Positions 2,880-50,231 of a DNA stretch of 64,000 bases are shown in pieces; position 1 is the stretch's first letter, and each line of letters opens with the position of its first letter. Source of the stretch: Oryzias latipes (lineage: Eukaryota > Chordata > Actinopteri > Beloniformes > Adrianichthyidae); the NCBI RefSeq assembly GCF_002234675.1, contig NC_019877.2:1936041-2000040 (forward strand). The letters run 5' to 3'. The translations under genes and the position numbers were made by a program. Under the pieces are notes generated by a model. It was not told the origin of the DNA. It saw only the letters and a list, made by a program, of their open reading frames with translations, and searched no databases.

Positions 2880-3890
2880 CCAGTTTCAGTTTCAGTTTCT
2901 TTCAAACACAAATGAAAAATCAACACAGTGGTTTAAGAAAGACCTAAAACAATACAGTGTGCTTGAAAAGGAGTGGGTTGAAGAGGAATCTTGTCTGCTC
3001 CCATCCCTTTTTACAAATCCTGACGGTGTGCGTATTCAACACGCGTACAGATAGGTACAAAACATTCACGTACAATTCTGCATGGCAACTGTGCAAAAGT
3101 GACATTTTTTGTTTTATTAATCATTTCTGGCCTTATACAGTACTATAGTGACTTCTTGTAGGATTTTTTGAATACATGTAAACTTTTGTTTGTTTTAAAC
3201 CTTCATCCAATCTATTCCATAAATCCACACCACAATTTGATAAACACATTTTCTTTTTTGTAGTGGGAATGTACTGCTTTATGAATTTCAGTTGTTTTCT
3301 TAGATTGTAACTCCCTTCTCTGTCTATGAACATTTGCTGTAAGTTTATTGGAAGTAAGTTGTTTCTGGCTTTAAGCATGATGAGTGTCGTCTTCAGTTTC
3401 ACTAGATCCCCTAGTTTCAATAAACCCGAGTATTTGTGTGTGTCCCATTGTCCACTCCATGAATCATTCGAACAGCTTTTTTTTGTAATATATATAAACA
3501 CTGTAGGTTTGTTTTCTAAGGATTTCCCCAAACTTCTACACTGTACTGTAAATATGGTAGTATTATGGATGAATATATTAGTAAACGTGCTTTGTGAGGT
3601 GTTTGTGGCGTTTTCCGAAAATCATGAATTTAGTTTTGTTAACACTGAGTGAGAGTTTATTTTTGTCAAACCATTGTTTCAGTTTCCCTAATTCTGTATT
3701 AACTATTTTTACAATTTTCTTGAGATTTTCCCCTGTACAGACTTGTGTCGTCAGCATATAAAAAGTATTTTAGTGTATTTGATACCAAGTGTATGTCATT
3801 AATGTATAGGATGAACAGTCGGGGGCCTAATATTGATCCTTGTGGAACTCCACAGCTTAAATTTAGCAGGGATGAAACTGCTGCCTGTTA
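2880..3890 (-). mobile_element. 5'-truncated L2/CR1-like LINE (reverse-transcriptase C-terminal part)
   Basis: On the minus strand, about 3780-3862 encodes the reverse-transcriptase words GVPQGSILGP, LFILYIND and, further on, YADDT. This is the catalytic YxDD region of a CR1/L2-type RT. The frame is broken before an open segment at 3531-3133 that holds a typical LINE C-terminus (LKARNNLLP, YNLR, CGVDLWN). The 3' UTR runs to a GAAACT-repeat tail at 2881-2900, so the 3' end looks intact while the 5' end is truncated near 3890. The copy is dead, with a frameshift and missing endonuclease and N-terminal RT. The clade is inferred from motif style. Confidence 0.75.
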
Positions 3891-15300: not shown

Positions 15301-18300
15301 AGACGTTCTTCTCGGAAAACGTTTTTTCTGGAAAAATTACGACTTTATGCTCATAAAATGTTACTTTATTTCCTAAAGTTTCTCAAAACAGTCAACAAAA
15401 CTTTGCTGGTGGTTGTGGGCTTAACCTGTCTGTGTGAAATCGTGAAGATCGCTTGAACAACGTTTTTTTTCCATGTTGAAGGAAAACGTGAACATTCGCC
15501 AAAGTACACATTTTCTTTGCCACAAAATAGCTGGCTGTGGCCATCCCATAATGATTTCAAACCTCCTTTGGATATCTATTGGATATCAATAGAGACCTCT
15601 ACAGTAGATGTGATTATCTGATGGACATCCTTCTGAAGGAATGACGCGCAGGAAATAGCAGCTGTTTCTAAATCCGGTTTTACGATCACATTATTATCAG
15701 ATATCTGCAGCATCTGCGCCTGAATCTGCGGCGCCGGCCTGAAGGCGCACTGATCGCTTTGCCCCCCTGCAGTGGAGACGCTCGATCTGCCCGTCGTTGT
15801 CGGCAGCTGATGCTGCAGCGCTGAAGGAAGCTAAATAAAGAAAATCAGATCCATATGTCCTTGACTGAGAAGGATATGACATGTGACGGTTTCTGTCGGT
15901 GACGCCGTCAGGCTCCGTTTTAGGAGTCCCAGACTAAAACTGAGGGCTCAGTCGTGCAGAAAAGGGAGATTTGAAAAAGAGTTGACCTTACAATGACATC
16001 ACACTGTTCTCTGGCGTTTCTGGGAATCAGGAGCAGACTGCTGGAAAACGTGGTATTTGTGACGTAGAACATGCGCTGGGCGGGGCCACAACCTCCCTGC
16101 TCCGCCCCACTTTGATGCATCCACTTGCAGACGACTGGATGCGTGACCCGTATTTTCGGACCATAAGCCGCCCTGGAGTCCAAGTCTCAAAGCTTGTGGA
16201 CATTTTTGCCAAGACCGATGTGAAGCTCCTCCCACACGTGACGGCAGCGTCATGTGTGGGAGGAGCTTCCGTCAGAAGTTTTTAGCCTTTATTTACTTGG
16301 GACCAGCTCTACAAAAGCGTCGGTGATCGCGTCTCCATGTCCGGGTTCATGACATCAGTCAGAGACTCTCCCGGTACGGCGAGCTTCACCGTCTACTGAA
16401 TGACGGCGCTTTCAGCGGTACTTTCTGTCCCTCTGTGACCCGGTTTGACGACCTGCTGACCCGCTTTAGTCCGAGGAGAGAAAAAAGCAAAAACAAGGAT
16501 AATAATGTCTAGACGCAAATAAGAAAAATATTCTCAAGTTCAGGAGAACGATCAGATTCTCCTCCATGTTTGTTTTGGACGACGCTTCTTCTTCTGTTGA
16601 TGCACACAACTATAGTGCCCTCTACAATAGAATAGAATAGAATAGAATAGAATAGAATAGAATAGAATAGAATAGAATAGAATAGAATAGAATAAAATAG
16701 AATAGCTTTATTTATAAAGCATCTTTCCCAGAATGAATCACAAAGTGCTTCACAAAAGGAGCATAAAATCATATCAAAACACAAAGAAGTAATAAAATAC
16801 AATAATAATAATAAAACAAAACACAGTAAAACTTAGTAAAGCACTGAATAAAATCAACTATAAGCTCTCCTGAATAAAAACTTTATGACCTGAGATTTAA
16901 TACAGTCAACAGAGGCGATCTGACGCAACGACAATGGAGGGAGTTCCAAAGACGAGGAGCAACGGCTTGACATGACAAATCTCCTCTGGACTTAAAGCGG
17001 GTTTTTGGAGCGCTTAATAGATTCTGGTTGGATGACCTCAAGGATCGGGCTGAAAAGTTTGGGGTTAAAAGGTCAGATACGTACGTCGGAGCTTGACCAT
17101 GCAGGGCTCTAAGAACTATTTTAAAATCAATTCCAAATAGCCGACGTAAAGCAGACAACAGAGGAGTGATGCGTGTCCGTTTACTGGTTCCTGTTCCTCA
17201 TGTGGTTATTATTGGAAAACAACCGCTAAGCCTGGTGGTTAGTGGGAAAATAACGAATATTTATTTGTTTTATAGAATCACATGTAAGTCGCCCCCCTGA
17301 CCAAAGAAACAGGTTTTATACTCACAAAAATGTGAAAGGTCTTTGTTTTCCTGGTCTGATAGAAATCTGGATCCAAACTGTACGGCTGGACAGCTGCAAT
17401 ACTGCTCACCATTTTTGTTGTTGCACTGGTAATGCTAGGTTGAGGATGTGAGGGGCTGTAGGCTAGCGGGCCTGTAAATAGAGAGCTCTCAGCAACAGTC
17501 CCGCCCACAACTCAAAGGTGAATTTCTAATGGAAACCTGCAGGAACTGCCTTAGAAAACGACGCAGGTTTTTAGATTTTGGTTAAAGACTGCACAATCCC
17601 ACTTGAAAGACCACTAGGGACGCTTTGGAAGTACATTGAAAAATGAACGGCGTGCGCCACGGCCTCCTAACCCCATGCCTGTGGGTGATGCCTGTTTAGA
17701 AATCTGAAAACGGTTTCTCTGGATTTGGGCGTGCCGCCATGTTCCACCCTGAATTCCATGCACAGTTTTAGAAATGAGGATCTCTATCATCTCCTTTTTT
17801 TTAATCTCCTTCTTTGATTCTAAGGTTAAAGGTCAGAAGCAGCCTTTTCTGTCCTGCTGGCCTGCATTCAATCCTGCATCTTTTCATCTAAAATGTGCTC
17901 ATGGGCTCTCATCCTCTGCTGCTATGGCGAGGATTAATGCGGCTCGTGCTCCACTGAGACGGATGAGCGTCTCCACAGATTACTGCTGAGATGAAATACA
18001 CTATTAGACTGTTATTAGCCAAACTGTGTTAGAAAACATGGAGCTGCGTGTGTTTCTTGGATAATCGTTGTTTCTTTTCATTGGTACACGTGTGATCCGC
18101 CACTCCGGTCTCCTTCAGCCACACTGAGCTCATTGTGTTTGCATACATCAGACAGCAGGCAGCAGGACGCTGAGAGCGCCGCTCCAGGTCACGCGTGTCA
18201 CGTCAGATGAAAGGCCCGAACAGCAGACGCGCCGACTTTACACCCAGAGAGTAAAAAAAATAAATAAAACACCAGTGACCTTCACGGATTCAGCCGAGCA

Positions 18301-24300: not shown

Positions 24301-27300
24301 AGGACAGCACAAGGGTTAAATTGTTGTGAACATTTGAACACAGAGCTGCTCTCATAGCTGCAGCTTTTTTGCTCATTTTGCAGGCGTTTGGATAAAAACT
24401 GAAGAGTTCCTTTCAAACGGGACAGTTCGACCCGTTTGTGTCGCAGGTTCCTGCTTCTTTTCGGCAGCTTCACTCCGCCAAACGACCAAACCGTCTGTGT
24501 GCGTTTGCTGTGATCTTCAGGATACTGACGGACCTCCTGAAGCAGCAGGGAAGTGAAGCCAGCTCCTTGGAGAACACCATGAGCAGCTCCCCCGGCGGCG
24601 GCGGCGGCGGCGGTGGCGGCAGAGGAGCCAACGGCGTTTCGACCAGGATGCTGCGCAGCAGAAGTGGTGAGAGCAAAAACCATCTCTGCTGTTTACAGAA
24701 CCCCTGGATTTCCCACAAACATTCTCTTTTGGCCCCAAATTATACTTGGAAGATTTGGGAATTAAAGGTATATAGTGTCTGTTTTATAATAAACTTTTAG
24801 ATAAAGCTCATTTTTTTTATTCAAACTGTCATATATACCTGACACAAACCTAAATGCATAAAATGAAATCTTTTACAGAACTTCTTGTTAAATTTTGAGA
24901 CAGTTTGAGACATAAAAATGTCTGTTTGAAGCTTGAATGAATAGTTGCCTCTAATCTTTGGTTTGTTTGTAACATTTATTATATCCAGGGAGAATTTTCT
25001 GGATAATCAAACTGCTTCCACCAAATCTTCTAGTAAATGTTGAAAAATAGAAGGAAGAAAACAAGGAGCGGTGTTGTATGGCTACCCGCCCCCGCCGGCC
25101 TCTTTTTAACCCGCCCCTCAGTGGCTAAGCAGCTGTTACTTGCCCCTCACTTCCCCCCTTCTGCCCCTGCCACCCTGGTCAGAGCTGCATGGGACAAATT
25201 CATGAAAAAAATCACTTTTTTATCAAAGTAATGGCTTTTCTGTTGGTTTTATCTCCATAGCAACCATTTTATTTTTTGGTTGCCTAGGGATGACGAACAG
25301 GTGGATGTCATTTTCAGAAGAATCGGCAAAAGTACATTTTTGAATTTCCTCGGCAACAGGGGTTTTTGATAACCACACCCATATTTCTGAAATGATCCTA
25401 TCATATCACCGTTTTGTTCAACTTGAAGAAGGCGACGATTCATGTATTAAATTTTCACACTATTCCGGTATAAACTGTGCGAGCAACAGCAAAATGCGAC
25501 TTCTGCGAGCTCGCCACGCTAACCTCCCACAAAAATCGTCGTGTAAATCGAACATTTTATCCCAAGTATCTCTGCAATGAGGCTGGAGGAGACCATTGAT
25601 TATAATCCCTAAGAGGACTTTTAGTCTGTAGAAAGTCCTACATTTTTGAAAAAATTCAAGAAAATTCTTTCCAAGGTCAAAGGTCAACAAAAGTTCGGTT
25701 GTGGTTGTCGACTTTACCTGCTGCCGTTTGGGGAAATTTTGCTTAAAAGTTGCTCAAAGTTTTTTCCATACTGTGTAAAAAAAAATAATCAAATTTTTTA
25801 ATTTTTTGTTCTGGTTATGACCAGAACAACTATTAATTTAATGTTATTTTAAATGTTAAATGTTGTTTTAAATTGCCTCTTTTATTTATTTATCTTCAGT
25901 TGTGCTGCTCTTCTGCACCCTCCATGTCCCAGAAGTAAAACCAGATATCGACCGACTGTCTCAATCCGACCCGGTGCTCGTTTTTGCCTCGTTGAAGTCA
26001 AGACGCACGTTTTTTGCCCCTTCAAACTATCCTGCGACTCTTCACCAGATCGCTCCCTGAAATTTGTTTTGGTCTCGTTATGGTTCAAAGCGAAAACACA
26101 ACCTGACGTCTCGCCTGGTGAATCACCTCCTTCTGTCCCAGATCTTCATCTGAAGTCTGCGCCTGTCACTGAAATATGTTTGTGACGTCTTCAGCCTGAC
26201 GGATTTGTGAACGGGTTCAGACTGAACGCGGGTGGAGCCGTCGGTCTACAGAAAAGCCAGACCAGGATTTGTTGTGGTGGAGAACATTGATGGAAAAGGT
26301 TCAGAGAAAACACTTTATTGAACTGTTTCCAGTCTCACTTTGAAGCTTTGGAGCTCTGATTCAGCTGTTCCACAAACATCTTCACTTTTATCAGTTAATA
26401 GGAGGTCAGCAGGACACTTTCACACTGAGCTGGTAGGTCCACACCCCTGAAACTCTGGTGGATTTATTCCAGTGGGAATGCTGATAGACCATGGACGAGA
26501 TCAAAGAAGGGATTGTTAGGAGATTCTTGAACAAGTTTTGTCTGTGAATATTAGGGGTGTTGGAAAAAATAGTTTCAGCGATATATCGCAATATTTCATT
26601 TGGCGATACTCGTATCGATTCAAAATGCTGCAAGGATGGTATTTATTTAATCACGTATGAGCCTCCTTCAGTGTCTGACTCTTGTTTTCCACTTAAACCT
26701 CCAACCGCTAGTTGGCAGCTGACCGACTGACCGACCAACCGAGCGACAGACTGGCTGAAAAACCAACCAACTGACCAACCAACCGACCAACAGACCTACT
26801 CACCAACCAACCAACTGACCATGCGACCGACTCAGCAACAAACCGACCAATAGACCTACTCACCAACCAACCAACCGACCGACTCAGCAACCAACCGACC
26901 AACAGACCAATAGATCTACTCACAAACCGACCGACAGACTGACTGACCAACCAACACGCCGTCAAGCTAACTGACCGACAGATCTACTCACTAACCAACC
27001 AACTGATCATGCGACCGACTCAGCAACCAACCGACCAACAGACCTACTCACCAACCAACCAACTGACCAATAGATCTACTCACAAACCGACCGACAGACT
27101 GACCGACCAACCAACACGCCGTCAAGCTAACTGACCGACAGACTCACTCTCAGCAGACCCACTCACCAACAGACCAACCGACTGACCCACAGATCTACTC
27201 ACCAACCGACCGACTGACCAACCAACCGAGCGACAGACTGAGCGACAGACCGACCAGCAGACGCCCCCCCTCCCAACCAATCAATCCAACAACCAATCGC

Positions 27301-43400: not shown

Positions 43401-44967
43401 AGACTCACTTTAGTTTTGAATTTGTCTTCTTTAATTTTACTCTTTTGTGCTTCAATTATTAAAAATTCAGATTTGTTGTGTTAGTTTAGTGAATGTCCAG
43501 CAGGGGGCAGTCTAAGCTGACAGCTTTTGTTTCATTTAGTTATCTGGAGTTAAAAAAAATGTTTTTATTGTTTTCATCTTGTCTTAATCCTCATATTTAG
43601 TTTAATGTTTCCCTCTAAGAAGCAATTTGTCTGTTTATCAGGTTTTAACGTCATCTATCTGCCGTTCGCTGACGACTTCAGGACTCTGGATCTTCCTCGA
43701 TGTCCGTACGCCTCACAGATGCAGGTCAACAAGATGAAGGAGATCATCTCAAAGCTGCGCTTCAAATACAGGTGCGTCCAGAGGAACCCCCAGGTGTCTT
43801 TATGTTCAGGAAGTATGATGAGTCGGATCTGGAGGTTACACATTCACGTGTCTCTGCAGGAGCGACGCCTTCGAGAACCCGGTCATTCAGAAGCACTTCA
43901 GGAACCTGGAGGCCTTGGCTCTGGACATGGTGGCTCCAGAGGAAATAGAGGACCTCATCAGTAAGATTCTGACCCAAAAAGAGAAATGGCAATCTGGTTT
44001 TCTGTGTGGTTACCTCTGACCGTCTGATGTTTCCTGCTTCAGTGCCAAAGGTGGAGCAGATTGACCAACGCCTGGGTCCTCTGGTCCAGGAGTTCAAAGA
44101 CCTGGTCTACCCTGCAGATTATAATCCAGAAACAAAACCAGCCGCTAAACGGAAAACAGGTAAAGGAAGAACGACAACTCTGGCCAGAACTCTGATTAAA
44201 AATGGTGTTTTTACATCTTCTTCTATGGTTTTTTGGTGATGATGGACGACTAACATGAAGGAAATTGGCCTAAAATTGAATTTCTGAGCGTTTATTTATT
44301 CAAATCATAATTATTTTTTATATTCTGTGTTTTGTCGTGTTTTACTGTGAAGCACTTTGTGATTTTTATCTTGAAAGGTGCTAAACAAATAAAGTTTAAT
44401 AGTATTATAATAGAAAAAATACACTGGGCGGACCTTGACCTCCCTGCTCTGAGGCCCCAGCAACATGGAGGGGAAGGGGGGCGGGGTTGTTCTGCACCAA
44501 CAGTCCCACCCGCATCTCAGATGTGAATTTCTAATGAAGTCCTGCCGCTCTGCAGAAAATATGTCCTAAAAAACAATACAGATTGCTGCATCGTTGTAAT
44601 GAAAAGATGCCACTTTATTTTGAAAGAGTTTAATTTGATTCTTTGTTGTCACTTAATTTTGAAAGAGATAAGTTAAATTCTTTCAAAATAAAGTGACAAC
44701 AATCATGATTGATGACACTTTATTTTGAAAGAATTTAACCAAATTCCAAATCCTCCTGGTGTAGCCGATGCTGGAGCCGGAGCGTCCGAGAAAAAGCCCA
44801 AAGTGGAGCTAACGGAAGACGAGCTGAGGGCCCACGTGCTGAACGGCACTCTGGGAAAGCTGACCGTGCCCGTGCTGAAGGACGCCTGCAAGCAGTTCGG
44901 GGTTCGAACCACCGTCACCAAGAAGCAGGAGCTGATGGACGTGCTGACGTCTCGACTGGGTTCGTGA
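40469..44967 (+). CDS. xrcc6: X-ray repair cross-complementing protein 6 (Ku70)
   Basis: Twelve exons join without a stop to give 611 aa (human: 609): 40469-40541, 40625-40737, 40825-40966, 41079-41330, 41405-41591, 41666-41852, 41937-42105, 42263-42424, 43642-43771, 43860-43960, 44043-44159, 44765-44967. Ku70 pairs with Ku80 as a ring that binds DNA ends and recruits DNA-PKcs for non-homologous end joining in the nucleus. Seen in order: an acidic N-terminus ([15 protein letters not shown]); a von Willebrand-A-like domain from [12 protein letters not shown]; the DNA-encircling beta-barrel core with [21 protein letters not shown] and [15 protein letters not shown]; the C-terminal arm ([19 protein letters not shown]); and a C-terminal SAP domain ([20 protein letters not shown]). 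The acceptor of exon 12 is the least certain border, because a hairpin repeat lies just upstream. Identity is certain by family resemblance. Confidence 0.95.
42545..42985 (+). repeat. dispersed repeat family D, copy 2 (xrcc6 intron 8)
   Basis: Matches 25060-25530. It includes a 16-base C run at 42605-42620 not present in copy 1 and ends near GCGAGCTCGCCACGTTAACG. AT-rich (TATA)n tracts follow at 43028-43078. Confidence 0.65.
44420..44570 (-). repeat. dispersed repeat family A copy (xrcc6 intron 11)
   Basis: The reverse complement reads GAAATTCACATCTGAGATGC, GGGACTGTTGGTGCAGAACA and CCAGTGTATTTTTTC, aligning with 8640-8760. It directly follows a LINE-like 3' end at 44330-44400 (GAAGCACTTTGTGATTTTTA, CTAAACAAATAAAGTTT). 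Confidence 0.5.
44606..44735. repeat. hairpin flanked by direct repeats at the xrcc6 exon 12 acceptor
   Basis: 24-bp arms at 44643-44666 and 44679-44702 pair with one mismatch across a 12-nt loop. The related word GATGMCACTTTATTTTGAAAG occurs directly at about 44608 and 44711, flanking the hairpin. The array ends about 30 bp before the exon 12 acceptor at 44764, within the usual branch-point zone. Confidence 0.65.
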
Positions 44968-45154
44968 GGAGCCGCGATCCCGCCGCCTTGAACCGTCACG
45001 CCAAAGTCCTGCGTCTGGGAGGAACTCAGATTTGTTAAAAGCATGTAGTGTTTGTCTGGAATCAGAAAACAATGTTTCCTTGTTGTATAAAAATGTTTCT
45101 GTCTTAGAGAGCCCTTCAAAGTAAGAGCATGTGAACTTCTCCTTGTGGTTCCAT

Positions 45155-45160
45155 AATAAA
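45155..45160 (+). terminator. xrcc6 polyadenylation signal
   Basis: AATAAA 188 bp after the stop, followed by a GTGTT-rich stretch (GCGTGTTCAG), as expected for cleavage. It lies only about 320 bp upstream of the next gene's start codon. Confidence 0.7.
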
Positions 45161-45479
45161 GCGTGTTCAGTAGAAGCTGTTTCCGCCTCTGCGCGTCTCT
45201 GGGGAGGGCGTGTCTCCTCAAAGCTGCAGCTGCATACCTTCAAGCAGGCGCAGCAGTTTTCCAGCGGAGGCTCGGCCTGCAGGAGGAGTCGGGGCATTTC
45301 TCCTCGTGTGAGTGGCGTCACGGTCCGGCGGGCAGAAAGCAGGCTCTCACATCACTGCAAACATCTACTTTCTAGAGGTGAGGCCTTAAAAACTGACCTT
45401 TGACCTGGATGGGTTTGTGGTGGACGAGCGTTGACCGCCATGTTCACAGCGGTTCTGCTGCAGCAGGTCTGAGCTGAGG

Positions 45480-47777
45480 ATGGAGTTTCTGCGCGGAGTA
45501 GAGGATGCTGGGAAGGCGGCTGCAGGTGAGAAGAGTCCAACGGACGGACGTTTGCCGGTTCTTCTGTTAGCATCGTGACTTGAGTGAGCTCCGTTTCTCA
45601 GGAAAAAGCTTTCCGCTGCTTCTAAAGAACCGTTGGAGGCAAGACTCAACTTGTCTTTGACTTTCCATGTAAACCTACGCAATAATACAAGTTATGATAT
45701 GGATCAGCTCAACGTGGATGAAAAACTAGATTTAAAAAACAGGCACTTTGAATTTTAATTTTTTAATGAAAATTTGAAAATAAGACGAAGATTTAAAAGA
45801 ATTTTTGAAATGTGAAAAATAAAATTGTAAAGAAAAAATTTACATTTAAAACTTTAAAACTACGGAGCTCCTTAAAGGTTATTGGTGTTAAAAAGAAAAT
45901 CAAAGAAGAAGAAAAAATTGCAAATTAGTAAAAATATTAAAAAAAAAATTAATCTTGAAAAAAACATTTATGGAGCACCTAAAGGAACATTATAGATCTA
46001 GAAAGAAAGTTTCTTCAGCATATAGTACACACAAGAAGCTTTTTTAAACGTTGTTTTTTTTATGAAAAATTAAAAATAAGACATTGTAAATTTAAAAGAA
46101 TTGTTGAAAAAAATAAAAAATCAAAATGTTTAAAAAAAAAAAAAGAAGGTAATCTTAAAAGAATTATTGAAACTTGAAATTTGAAACTAACGTTGATGTT
46201 AAAAAGAAAAGCAAAGAAGAAAAAAAAGTGGTAAATCAGGAAAAAAAAAGGTTTAATCTTGAAAGAAATATTTACGGATCCCCTAACGGGACATTATAGT
46301 TCTAGAAAAAGAGTCACTTGTTGTTGGTTTGATTCTGGTTCTGTTTAGTCTGGTGGCTGAAGAGCAACTGTCTCTGGATGGGAGTCGTTGTCATCGTGGG
46401 ATTTATTTTCTACAAACTTTGTCAAAGTAAGTCACAAAATAAAACAATTGAACTATTGAAATATTTTGATTTTCATCTTTTTTTTTTTATTTTAACAAGA
46501 TAAATCCCTCAAAGGAGTAATTTCTTAAAAGCGGGTGATATAACATTGGATCAAATCCTTTCTTCTGGCAGCTCTTCCGGCTCTGATCCGATGGCTCGTC
46601 CGGATCTTCTGCTCCCCCAAAGGTGAGGCTTTGCTCCTCTTTCTGCTCCGTCTCTGACCTGAAACGTCTTCTGACTGTTGCTTCTGTGTCTGCGTCAGGA
46701 ATCCGCCGGCTTTGGGGCTGGATGAGCCTGACAAACATCCGTCGTAAGACCTCAACGTTTCATTGAAGCGTGTAAAAAGGAATCTTTACCAAAATAAAAG
46801 GTTTTTTCTTCCCGTGTCTCAGGAATCCAGAGTCTGGTTAGATGGCTGTTGAGGATTATAGTTTTTTTAAGTGGTGAGTGCTTCCTGCTTTTTTTTTTTT
46901 AACTAAAAGTGGACAAATTATCCAAAGAAACAACAAATATCGCACAAAAAACCCTGTAATAATATAAAAGTCCCACTAAATCTGGAATTTTCCTCTTTGT
47001 CAGGTCTGACCTTCAGGCTGCTGTGGATTTTTACATTCGGCAAAGGTATTAGGAGCTTTTATTTTGGTTTTCCCTTTTTGTTTGTGCAGAATGCATCAAA
47101 AAATGTCATCATTCTAAACATGAAAATGAGTCCGTTGGTCTCCAATCCTCCTAAATATAACGGCCACAGCTGTTAAAGGAAACAAGGACAAACATAACAA
47201 AATTCCAATTTGATTAGGATTGAATTCTGAAGGAGCAAAGGTGATGACAATGTGTTGGTTTAAAATAAAAAAAAACATGTGCTTCAAAAAGAGTCAAGTT
47301 TTCGGTTGAATAGATCATGTTTGTTTTTTTTAATTTAAATTAAAAAGGTTAAAATAAAAGTCAGGACATCAAACAGAGGAAATGGCACAAACTCAAAAAA
47401 AACCATCCCAAATAAACAAAAATGTGTGAAAATTTGTCCAATTCAGTGAGAAAAAATGTTGGTTTCCTCTGAAACAGATGCAGAAACTGTCAGATTTAAG
47501 GTGGAATGAGATGTTTTTTAAGAACAGACTCCATGCAGCTAAAGTGTTTCTGAAATGAGAACTGATGTCCAACAATGTTCTTTTTTTTTTGGTCTGTCTG
47601 GGCTCCAAAGGATCTTCAAAGTCTCCGAAGGGTCCAGAACCTGTCCTGACCAAGGTGAAGCAGGTCCTCCTGGGACCCCCTGGGGGAGGACCCACCTCCT
47701 TATTGGGATCCTTGTTAGGCAGTAGAACCGGAGAGGCGAAGGCCCCCGCCGGCCCTCTACTGCAGAGCACCAAGTAG
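45480..47777 (+). CDS. unrecognised small membrane protein encoded by phase-1 micro-exons
   Basis: Seven exons join in one frame: 45480-45525, 46349-46426, 46572-46622, 46699-46743, 46823-46873, 47004-47045, 47611-47777 (159 aa). All six introns are GT-AG and phase 1, and the five internal exons (78, 51, 45, 51, 42 nt) are multiples of three, so any could be skipped without a frameshift. The N-terminus MEFLRGVEDAG precedes a strong transmembrane helix (about 23-40, LWMGVVVIVGFIFYKL). Residues 42-104 are short Trp/Arg-rich hydrophobic segments, one per exon. Exons 3 and 5 match (ALIRWLVRI versus SLVRWLLRI) and are the same length, suggesting exon duplication. The tail (105-159) is Gly/Pro/Lys-rich, with VLTKVKQVLLGPPGGG. 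I do not recognise the family. Topology suggests a single-pass protein plus amphipathic membrane-surface helices. It lies between xrcc6 and josd1 on the same strand. Chance assembly of six phase-matched introns is unlikely, but expression is unproven. Confidence 0.65.
45745..46315 (+). repeat. ~290-bp AT-rich tandem duplication in intron 1 of the micro-exon gene
   Basis: 45745-46015 and 46045-46315 are diverged direct copies. Landmarks are GGAGCACCTAAAGGAACATT versus GGATCCCCTAACGGGACATT; TATAGATCTAGAAA versus TATAGTTCTAGAAA; and AAGAAAATCAAAGAAGAAG versus AAGAAAAGCAAAGAAGAA. It ends just before exon 2. Confidence 0.65.
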
Positions 47778-47959
47778 AGCGTGGACGGAGACGGTGACAC
47801 CCCCATGACACGTGTCCATGACATCAGCGGGGAGTTTGACCCGCGTCTTCCTGCAAAGACGTGTGGCGTTTCCTGCAGGATGCAGATAATCATCGAACCT
47901 TCTGATCTCTTTGTCGTTTTTTTTCTCTTCTTTATTTTTTTAAAAAATTCACCATTTAG

Positions 47960-48180
47960 GTTGGGGGGGGGGGGGTTTGGCGTGGAGCAACCCCTTCCCC
48001 CCTTCCCTCCACTACCTTACACCACAACATTACTGGGGTAACAAAAGCGGCGAGCAAGGTTGGAGCGGATGCATCACAACGGCGAGCTTGTGGCCCCGCC
48101 CATCGCAGTTTCTGGGTTTTTTTCCCCCCGTCTGCTCTTGATTCACAACTATTTGAATAAAGCAATTTTCTCTGATAATA
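47960..48180 (+). repeat. dispersed repeat family A copy
   Basis: Shares GTGGAGCAACCCCTTCCCCC, CGAGCTTGTGGCCCCGCCCA, GTCTGCTCTTGATTCACAAC and TTTGAATAAAGC. The AATAAA at 48156-48161 may serve as a polyadenylation signal for the upstream micro-exon gene. Confidence 0.5.
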
Positions 48181-48184
48181 CTTC

Positions 48185-49245
48185 GATTAAACTGGATCCA
48201 AGCGCAGCGTAACCATGGAAACGTGCACAGAATTGACTTTGATTGGCTTCTGGGTGAACATCTCAGTCGATGAAAAGGGCCGTCGACGCATCGTCCCTGC
48301 GTCAGATCCAACGTTTGACATATTTACTGATGAAGACCCTGATGAAGGTCAGAAAGTCTGTGAAAAATATTTGCCTGATTAATTTTAATCATCAAAAACG
48401 ACTGGAAGAAGATAAGAACAACTAATAAACGAAGCTTTAGTGCCTCTTTCATTAGAAACACATTTCAGGAACAACAACTAAAATAAAGATGAAACAAATT
48501 GTGAAAATATTTTGGAATAAAACCTTTTAATCAGGAAAAATGGGATTTTAGTTAGCGTTGGAACATGAAAAAGAAAATGTAAGATGTACTTAAAATAAAA
48601 AACTCAGTGAGTGACACAAAGGCAGATTTTTGACACTTTTATTCAACATGTAATCCATTAAACATAAAAGTTATTAGTTATGTCTTTGCTGCTTTATAAC
48701 CTCAAAAATAATGTGTTCCTAGAATGCATTACTCCTGTAATGCTGTTAACAAATTTAACATTCATGTTTAGATTCATTTTAAACCAAATTCTTTAAATTT
48801 AAAAGGATAAATTTGAGCATTTTTTAAGCTTTGGGCTTTCAAGATTTAACAGTATTTGTTGAATAGGTCTTTTTAAAATTCACATCTGGTTTTATTTTGT
48901 TAACCTGGAAGTATTCGCTGTAAATGGGGGGTTTATCTGAGCTTGTTTTAATACGTTTTGGGGATTTCTTTAGCCTTTTTTAAATTTAAATTTGTATCAT
49001 TTTTTTCTTCCTGTTAAGTGATTCTATTCTAGTATTTCAATGGGTGATCATATCAATAATTTCAGTCATTTTTTACACTTTTTGGGGCATCTTTAAAAAT
49101 ACATCTTTAGCAAATGCTTGTTTATTTTATTCTGAAATTAATAGTAAATACTAAGAATGAACAAACCAAATTAAAAGAGAAAAAACGTAAAATATTTATG
49201 ATAGTGAGAGAAACTGCTGTAAAAGTAAGTAAATTTAATGGGGAA
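48185..49245. other. intergenic, no gene seen
   Basis: AT-rich spacer between the micro-exon gene and the josd1 promoter. No exon, tRNA-like or element signature was recognised. Confidence 0.4.
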
Positions 49246-49249
49246 TTTC

Positions 49250-50231
49250 ACAGGTTGAAGGTGCGCGTGAGAGTCGCCCCTCCCCTTTCACTGACGCAGG
49301 CTCTGACGGTCACGTGGAGCCTGTGGAAACTCACTGCGCATGTCAGCGTTCGCACGGACAGGAGAAAGACTCATCGGGACCAAAGTGGGCAAATAAACGT
49401 ACTTTAGGTGGTTTTTGGAGCGACGAACGGCTGGGTTTACATCTCACAGCGCCTCCTTAAAGTCCCGTTCGGACAAAGCCGTTTGGAAACGGACGAGTAA
49501 GTGTCCAAAACATGAAGTTTAGAGGCCAGGCGTTGTGTGTTCGCCGTAGAAACGGGAGTCACGGAGTAGCAGACTCAGTCTGGCTAAAACGCTAAATATC
49601 TTCAGGGACGTGAAGAAGAAATCCCATCTGTTTGTGTGGTTCTGCGCGGTCACGGAGGCAGTTCCTCCGGTGTGTGTGCGTGTTAGCGTCCGTGGCTGGT
49701 TTAGGCTAGCACACTGACTGGACTGCTTGTTTCCTCTGATCCAGTCAGTCTTCGCTGTTTACTTTCTGCCTATTTCTGGGTCTGCTGACCAGGAGGAGGC
49801 TGGAGCTTCACGGCAGGCTGTTCATCCGTCACAAACACTTTCAAAGTCTCCTACAAGTGTCTAATTTCATACTTTGACTCAATGAAAGCCTTCAAAACAT
49901 TTGTGTTTTAGGTGCTAATCTGGATTCAAACATCTGCAGAGGAAGCCCAGCGGTCTGAGGATGGAAGGAGCTGCAGATCTTCAGGAAGAAGCTCCCGAGT
50001 CTTCAGTTTGAGGCTACAATCTGCTTTAATCTGCAGGATTAAGGAAATATTCCTAACTGAACTCTTCCTTGAGTTTGGTGGTGGCAGCAGGAGCTCGTTT
50101 CCCCCCATAGGCCTAGCTGCTCTCTTCCTGGATGGTGAGGGGGTTGCCATGGTTACCGTTGCTGTGCCACTGATGTAGCGTCCTGAAGTGGTAGGGGTTG
50201 GGGTGGAGCTGGAGGAGGAGGACGTGCAGGA
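49250..50231 (+). promoter_or_regulatory. josd1 promoter and 5' untranslated exons
   Basis: CpG-containing sequence from about 49255 leads to a probable leader exon ending at donor GGACGA|GTAAGT (49496). A second 5' exon opens at acceptor GTGTTTTAG (49911) and runs into the coding exon. The leader contains upstream ATGs, for example near 49960 and 50150, so translation may be tuned by short upstream frames. The transcription start is not placed. Confidence 0.45.

Follow-up and report, generated by a model that had tools for sequence, protein, structure and literature searches.

A candidate seven-exon gene for a small, basic, predicted membrane protein between xrcc6 and josd1 of Oryzias latipes

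Does the spacer between xrcc6 and josd1 of Oryzias latipes hold a protein-coding gene assembled largely from very small exons, and, if so, what does its exon structure imply for splicing and for the protein? Such a gene had been proposed at 45480-47777 of the stretch of DNA analyzed here (64,000 nucleotides in all, called the window below). We put the probability of a real gene with this architecture, about 3 kb long and encoding a small basic protein of 159 residues that is predicted to enter the membrane, at roughly 0.72, judging from the sequence.

Exon chain between xrcc6 and josd1

Of the flanking genes, xrcc6 was recognized by Protein Data Bank matches to Ku70 and josd1 by its Josephin domain, bearing out the position given in the original prediction. 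Farther out in the window are a Shisa N-terminal domain (~12.6 kb) and a CBX C-terminal motif (~60.1 kb); together, these four neighbors match a set that lies in human chromosome 22q13.

When the seven proposed exons were joined and the frame was checked, they gave a single frame of 159 codons. Each of the six introns has GT-AG ends and interrupts the frame in phase 1, as claimed, and each of the five internal exons (78, 51, 45, 51, and 42 nt) is a multiple of three. The features of the gene model are as follows.

45200..45479, + strand: GC-rich 5′ region and probable 5′ UTR (base composition; ATG context by eye)
45480-45525 (46 nt), + strand: exon 1, MEFLRGVEDAGKAAA, with a phase 1 donor ranking within the top 0.14% of GT dinucleotides in the window
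46349-46426 (78 nt), + strand: exon 2, predicted transmembrane helix 1 (hydropathy, insertion score; weak acceptor)
46572-46622 (51 nt), + strand: exon 3, cassette TLPALIRWLVRIFCSPK (exon chain; hydrophobic moment 0.68)
46699-46743 (45 nt), + strand: exon 4, cassette GIRRLWGWMSLTNIR (Trp in shared register; weak donor)
46823-46873 (51 nt), + strand: exon 5, cassette RIQSLVRWLLRIIVFLS, an in-register relative of exon 3 (exon 3/5 alignment)
47004-47045 (42 nt), + strand: exon 6, GLTFRLLWIFTFGK (with exon 5, a predicted second hydrophobic helix)
47611-47777 (167 nt with the stop), + strand: exon 7, basic Pro/Gly-rich C-terminal tail and stop (codon-usage model)
47778..48180, + strand: probable 3′ UTR (AATAAA at 48156)

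The GC content is 0.57 at 45200-45600, compared to 0.25 at 45600-46300, and the CpG observed/expected ratio of the 5′ region (0.72) is ordinary for the 64-kb window. Judged by eye, the ATG of exon 1 has A at −3 and G at +4; two upstream ATGs, at 45409 and 45440, are both out of frame. A probable polyadenylation signal of xrcc6 lies at 45155, upstream of the gene. The gene would thus run from the GC-rich region near 45.2 kb to the polyadenylation signal at 48156, a motif that is also present in the gene's AT-rich introns.

Four of the 12 splice sites are weak, each lying within the top 12 to 18% of all GT or AG in the window: the exon 2 acceptor (top 18% of AG), the exon 4 donor (top 12% of GT), the exon 6 donor (GTATTA, top 17% of GT), and the exon 7 acceptor. 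The junction between exons 6 and 7 is the least secure of the gene. The spliced frame contains the terminal stop only, while the other two forward frames contain 12 and 2 stops. The in-frame codon score exceeded those of 994 of 1,000 shuffles of the same sequence, with codon training in which one piece overran its exon by two codons, including a stop.

Several other sequences were noted in and around the locus. Within intron 1, an AT-rich stretch of ~300 bp occurs twice in tandem (45747-46319); copies of repeat families D3, D4, and D7 lie 304, 296, and 311 bases apart and are 80 to 85% alike. The last xrcc6 intron (44608-44740) carries, by eye, direct and inverted copies of a CACTTTATTTTGAAAGA-like motif just before the last exon; this may be a small mobile element with a palindromic structure. 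On the minus strand, an open frame at 26708-26983 consists of repeated Val/Ser/Arg-Leu-Val-Gly-Trp-type units and is probably a tandem repeat read through. Minus-strand open frames at 16883-17197 and 3133-3621 resemble retroelement remnants; a Pfam search of both returned nothing up to an E value of 0.01.

Gene-finder scans and searches for relatives

A dynamic-programming gene finder was written for this analysis. It relied on splice-site matrices (with approximate vertebrate consensus frequencies), the context of the start codon, and open frames only, and it was given positions 45181-48200 with the model withheld. Its optimum held exons 1 to 5 exactly at exon costs of 0, 2, and 4, that is, in three of the four settings. 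Exon 6 was exact at cost 2, was given another start at cost 0, and was replaced at cost 4; exon 7 as a whole was not chosen at any exon cost. At cost 6, exons 1, 3, and 5 were kept and exons 2, 4, and 6 were dropped. Dinucleotide shuffles of this 3-kb stretch, which had been picked on account of the finding itself, reached the real score in 1/500 (cost 2), 2/500 (cost 4), and 0/500 (cost 6) cases. We also scored 3,020-base segments on both strands of the window at cost 4. The segment with exons 1 to 6 ranked second among 82 segments, which overlap by half and hence are not independent; its score of 32.6 fell between those of the josd1 segment (34.9) and the xrcc6 segment (31.5). A minus-strand segment without a recognized gene reached 26.1 by splice sites alone, compared to 32.6 at the locus.

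A second finder combined splice sites with codon usage trained on the xrcc6 exons. At costs 4 and 6, its optimum contained exons 1 and 3 to 7 exactly and dropped exon 2; at cost 8, a shorter chain was returned. None of 300 shuffles reached the real score at any of the three costs. This score is not specific, because segments elsewhere, including antisense ones, score higher: the locus scored 64, and the best 14 of the 82 segments all scored at least 73. Two of those 14 are minus-strand segments antisense to other exons (83 and 77), and one (43791) contains part of the gene chained to xrcc6.

A further scan, of 45200-47611, looked for open, symmetric mini-exons whose two splice sites each scored 0 or more. 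It gave five candidates, namely, exons 2, 3, and 5 and two overlapping ones at 45230-45307. The scan misses exons 4 and 6, whose donors are weak, and other weak exons could escape likewise. Taken together, exons 1, 3, and 5 are the best supported, exon 4 is well supported, exon 6 is fairly supported, and exons 2 and 7 are moderately supported.

Antisense genes were considered and set aside, as the long minus-strand open frames at 44703-45351 and 47393-48016 resemble those that commonly arise opposite GC-rich exons. No minus-strand segment over 44 to 48 kb was among the best 14 of 82 in either scan. Just upstream of josd1, the gene finder chains 49300-49341, 49550-49669, and 49745-49856, with and without codon usage; these may be 5′ exons of josd1, belong to another small gene, or reflect chance.

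Alternatively, the spacer might hold a chance chain of open frames and cryptic splice sites, or what is left of a dead gene. Such an origin is favored by the weak junctions, by the unspecific codon-usage score, and by the one or two shuffles of 500 that equaled the real splice-site score at two of the three exon costs. Against this, exons 1 to 5 were found exactly, untold, in three of four settings, the locus scores beside two known genes, the cassettes include an in-register repeat (see below), and the GC content is 0.54 in exons versus 0.31 in introns. We therefore regard a chance or decayed chain as improbable, while counting a non-coding or decaying gene among the possible readings of the locus.

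The search for relatives covered protein families, structures, and genomes. The 159-residue product matched no Pfam family up to an E value of 10, and its single match among solved structures (E value of 0.43 over 24 residues) was taken as chance. A protein search of the fish's own genome (734,051,031 bases, 25 contigs) gave eight matches, of which six are the locus itself; the other two (E values of 0.77 and 1.19) contain stops, and no second copy was found. Because each exon was matched separately and exon 6 of the gene itself reached just an E value of 0.025, a diverged copy composed of short exons could escape this search. It likewise revealed no retrocopy, which would have proved splicing. 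A DNA search of the same genome returned the locus and five short matches at other places, all to pieces of intron 1. In collections where fish DNA is not expected, none of 6 pattern matches in viral contigs and none of 149 in bacterial and archaeal genomes was confirmed. Rfam and tRNA scans of the 64-kb window gave no matches.

The gene had been called undescribed. We found no literature joining josd1, xrcc6, and teleosts, and the titles and abstract openings of the matches listed made no mention of a gene between xrcc6 and josd1; undescribed status is unproven on this footing. The gene may be orthologous to a divergent gene already annotated in vertebrates or teleosts, a reading that is compatible with a real gene and that we rate at a little short of even odds. 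In its favor, fish genes can generally be expected, for the most part, to have counterparts in other fishes. The lack of a Pfam family, of a credible solved structure, and of a paralog in the genome itself counts against it, although these three negatives would not reveal the ortholog of an uncharacterized gene.

Probable exon duplication, predicted topology, and possible splicing variation

The original prediction described repeated RWLxRI-type amphipathic pieces, one per internal exon after the first. Exons 3 and 5 carry the motif literally. Aligned in register, these two 51-nt exons share 6/17 residues with many conservative changes (shuffle P value of 5e-5 for the best of six pairs, uncorrected for the six). 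The other five cassette pairs are weakly alike (P values of 0.04 to 0.11), and 0/20,000 shuffles attained the score summed over the six pairs. A Trp at residue 8 is common to all four cassettes, exons 3 to 6 (P value of 0.0005 for a common column). Codon identity between exons 3 and 5 is highest at the second position (10/16, compared to 7/16 at the first and 6/16 at the third), as would be expected if the encoded residues have been preserved and silent sites have diverged. The repeat is most simply explained by tandem duplication of a symmetric exon, and at least exons 3 and 5 probably derive from one such ancestral exon; convergence on an Arg/Trp helix is a possible alternative.

Amphipathicity does not extend to every cassette. 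The hydrophobic moment was 0.68 for exon 3 (shuffle P value of 0.003) and 0.67 for exon 5 (P value of 0.002), whereas exons 4 and 6, despite the shared Trp, were not amphipathic by this measure (P values of 0.52 and 0.91). The proposed amphipathic pieces thus hold for two of the four cassettes.

With approximate hydropathy and insertion scales and a rough home-made insertion score, exon 2 is predicted to form the expected transmembrane helix at about residues 22 to 40 (19-residue hydropathy of 1.87, insertion score of −1.25). A second hydrophobic segment of similar strength, residues 82 to 100, is made by the exon 5/6 junction; it would include two arginines, which counts against it. The notion of one segment per exon suits exon 2, but exons 5 and 6 joined fit a second hydrophobic helix better than they fit two amphipathic pieces. 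The product has a net charge of +17, of which +11 falls in residues 42 to 105; by the positive-inside rule, this charge would place the cassettes in the cytosol.

A putative arrangement follows from these properties. The exon 2 helix would serve as the first transmembrane helix and anchor the protein; exons 3 and 4 would form Trp/Arg interface helices on the cytosolic leaflet, according to the same rule; and exons 5 and 6 would join into a second membrane or re-entrant helix, followed by the basic tail. We tentatively suggest, at clearly less than even odds, that such a product could act as a membrane-surface anchor or a small membrane-shaping protein, with expression, topology, and action all inferred.

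The frame-neutral exons had been read as a set of swappable segments with up to 32 skip-isoforms. All 32 include/skip combinations are indeed open and encode 70 to 159 residues, but one of them is the full-length form, leaving 31 skips. No upstream exon ends in T, so the phase 1 junction codon is never a stop in any exon pairing. Symmetric cassettes might be alternatively included, the cell thereby tuning the number of membrane-interface helices of an otherwise real gene. Besides the open combinations, the weak sites on several exons would suit variable inclusion, and duplicated exons are described as a known substrate of exon substitution (PMC9741552). Frame neutrality, however, is expected from the duplication of a symmetric exon and, as a by-product of it, is not in itself evidence of modular splicing; moreover, tandem duplication is described as common and mutually exclusive splicing of the copies as not (PMC9741552). 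We give modular splicing little credence, and regulated exon skipping in this gene is likewise doubtful. A still bolder and less probable version would have the gene retune its own membrane topology by splicing. Helix 2 would then require the inclusion of both exon 5 and exon 6, because their junction joins two half-helices, an arrangement we consider very unlikely. Skipping either exon would yield a one-helix protein with its basic tail on the other side of the membrane, and exons 3 and 4 would set the number of interface helices.

The splicing logic of the gene is probably ordinary until transcripts say otherwise, and what is noteworthy is then the lack of a recognized family together with the duplicated Trp/Arg exons. 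If expressed, the gene would encode a small membrane protein matched by no Pfam family and would be a compact record of exon duplication making membrane-interface helices. Regulated skipping would make it a simple system for studying the effect of splicing on membrane topology; if merely constitutive, it would be one more uncharacterized gene.

Relation to known systems

Schistosome micro-exon genes have coding sequence made up largely of tiny symmetric exons, and their products are secreted and carry a signal peptide. The gene described here resembles them in that its five internal exons, each 42 to 78 nt long, make up 267 of its 480 coding nucleotides (counting the stop). It differs in encoding a predicted membrane protein of a fish, and there is no known relation between the two. 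The N-terminus of the predicted product, MEFLRGVEDAGKAAA, is charged rather than hydrophobic, as judged by eye.

LST1 is described as a small, alternatively spliced transmembrane adaptor with at least 16 reported splice variants, only one of which was detected as protein; it carries inhibitory tyrosine motifs and, in its short extracellular part, a cysteine through which it dimerizes (PMC8111073). Likened by description, both are small membrane proteins, the one here by prediction (PMC8111073). The tail of the product here contains no immunoreceptor tyrosine inhibitory motif, its sole Tyr being residue 37, inside predicted helix 1.

The fusogens myomerger and FAST are described as combining a membrane helix with an amphipathic helix, to which FAST adds a polybasic motif (PMC7830690). 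The product here has, by sequence prediction, a membrane helix (residues 22 to 40) and basic amphipathic helices (exons 3 and 5), a like anatomy in a small protein when compared by description (PMC7830690). Unlike these fusogens as described, it has a likely second hydrophobic helix, and whereas myomerger is described as N-in/C-out (PMC7830690), the charge distribution of the present product points to the reverse orientation of helix 1.

Vertebrate genes also contain tandem duplicated exons, of which one copy is described as substituting for the other (PMC9741552). Exons 3 and 5 are like them in being nearby, homologous in register, and of equal length and phase; here, a further exon (exon 4) stands between the copies, while the described copies substitute for each other (PMC9741552).
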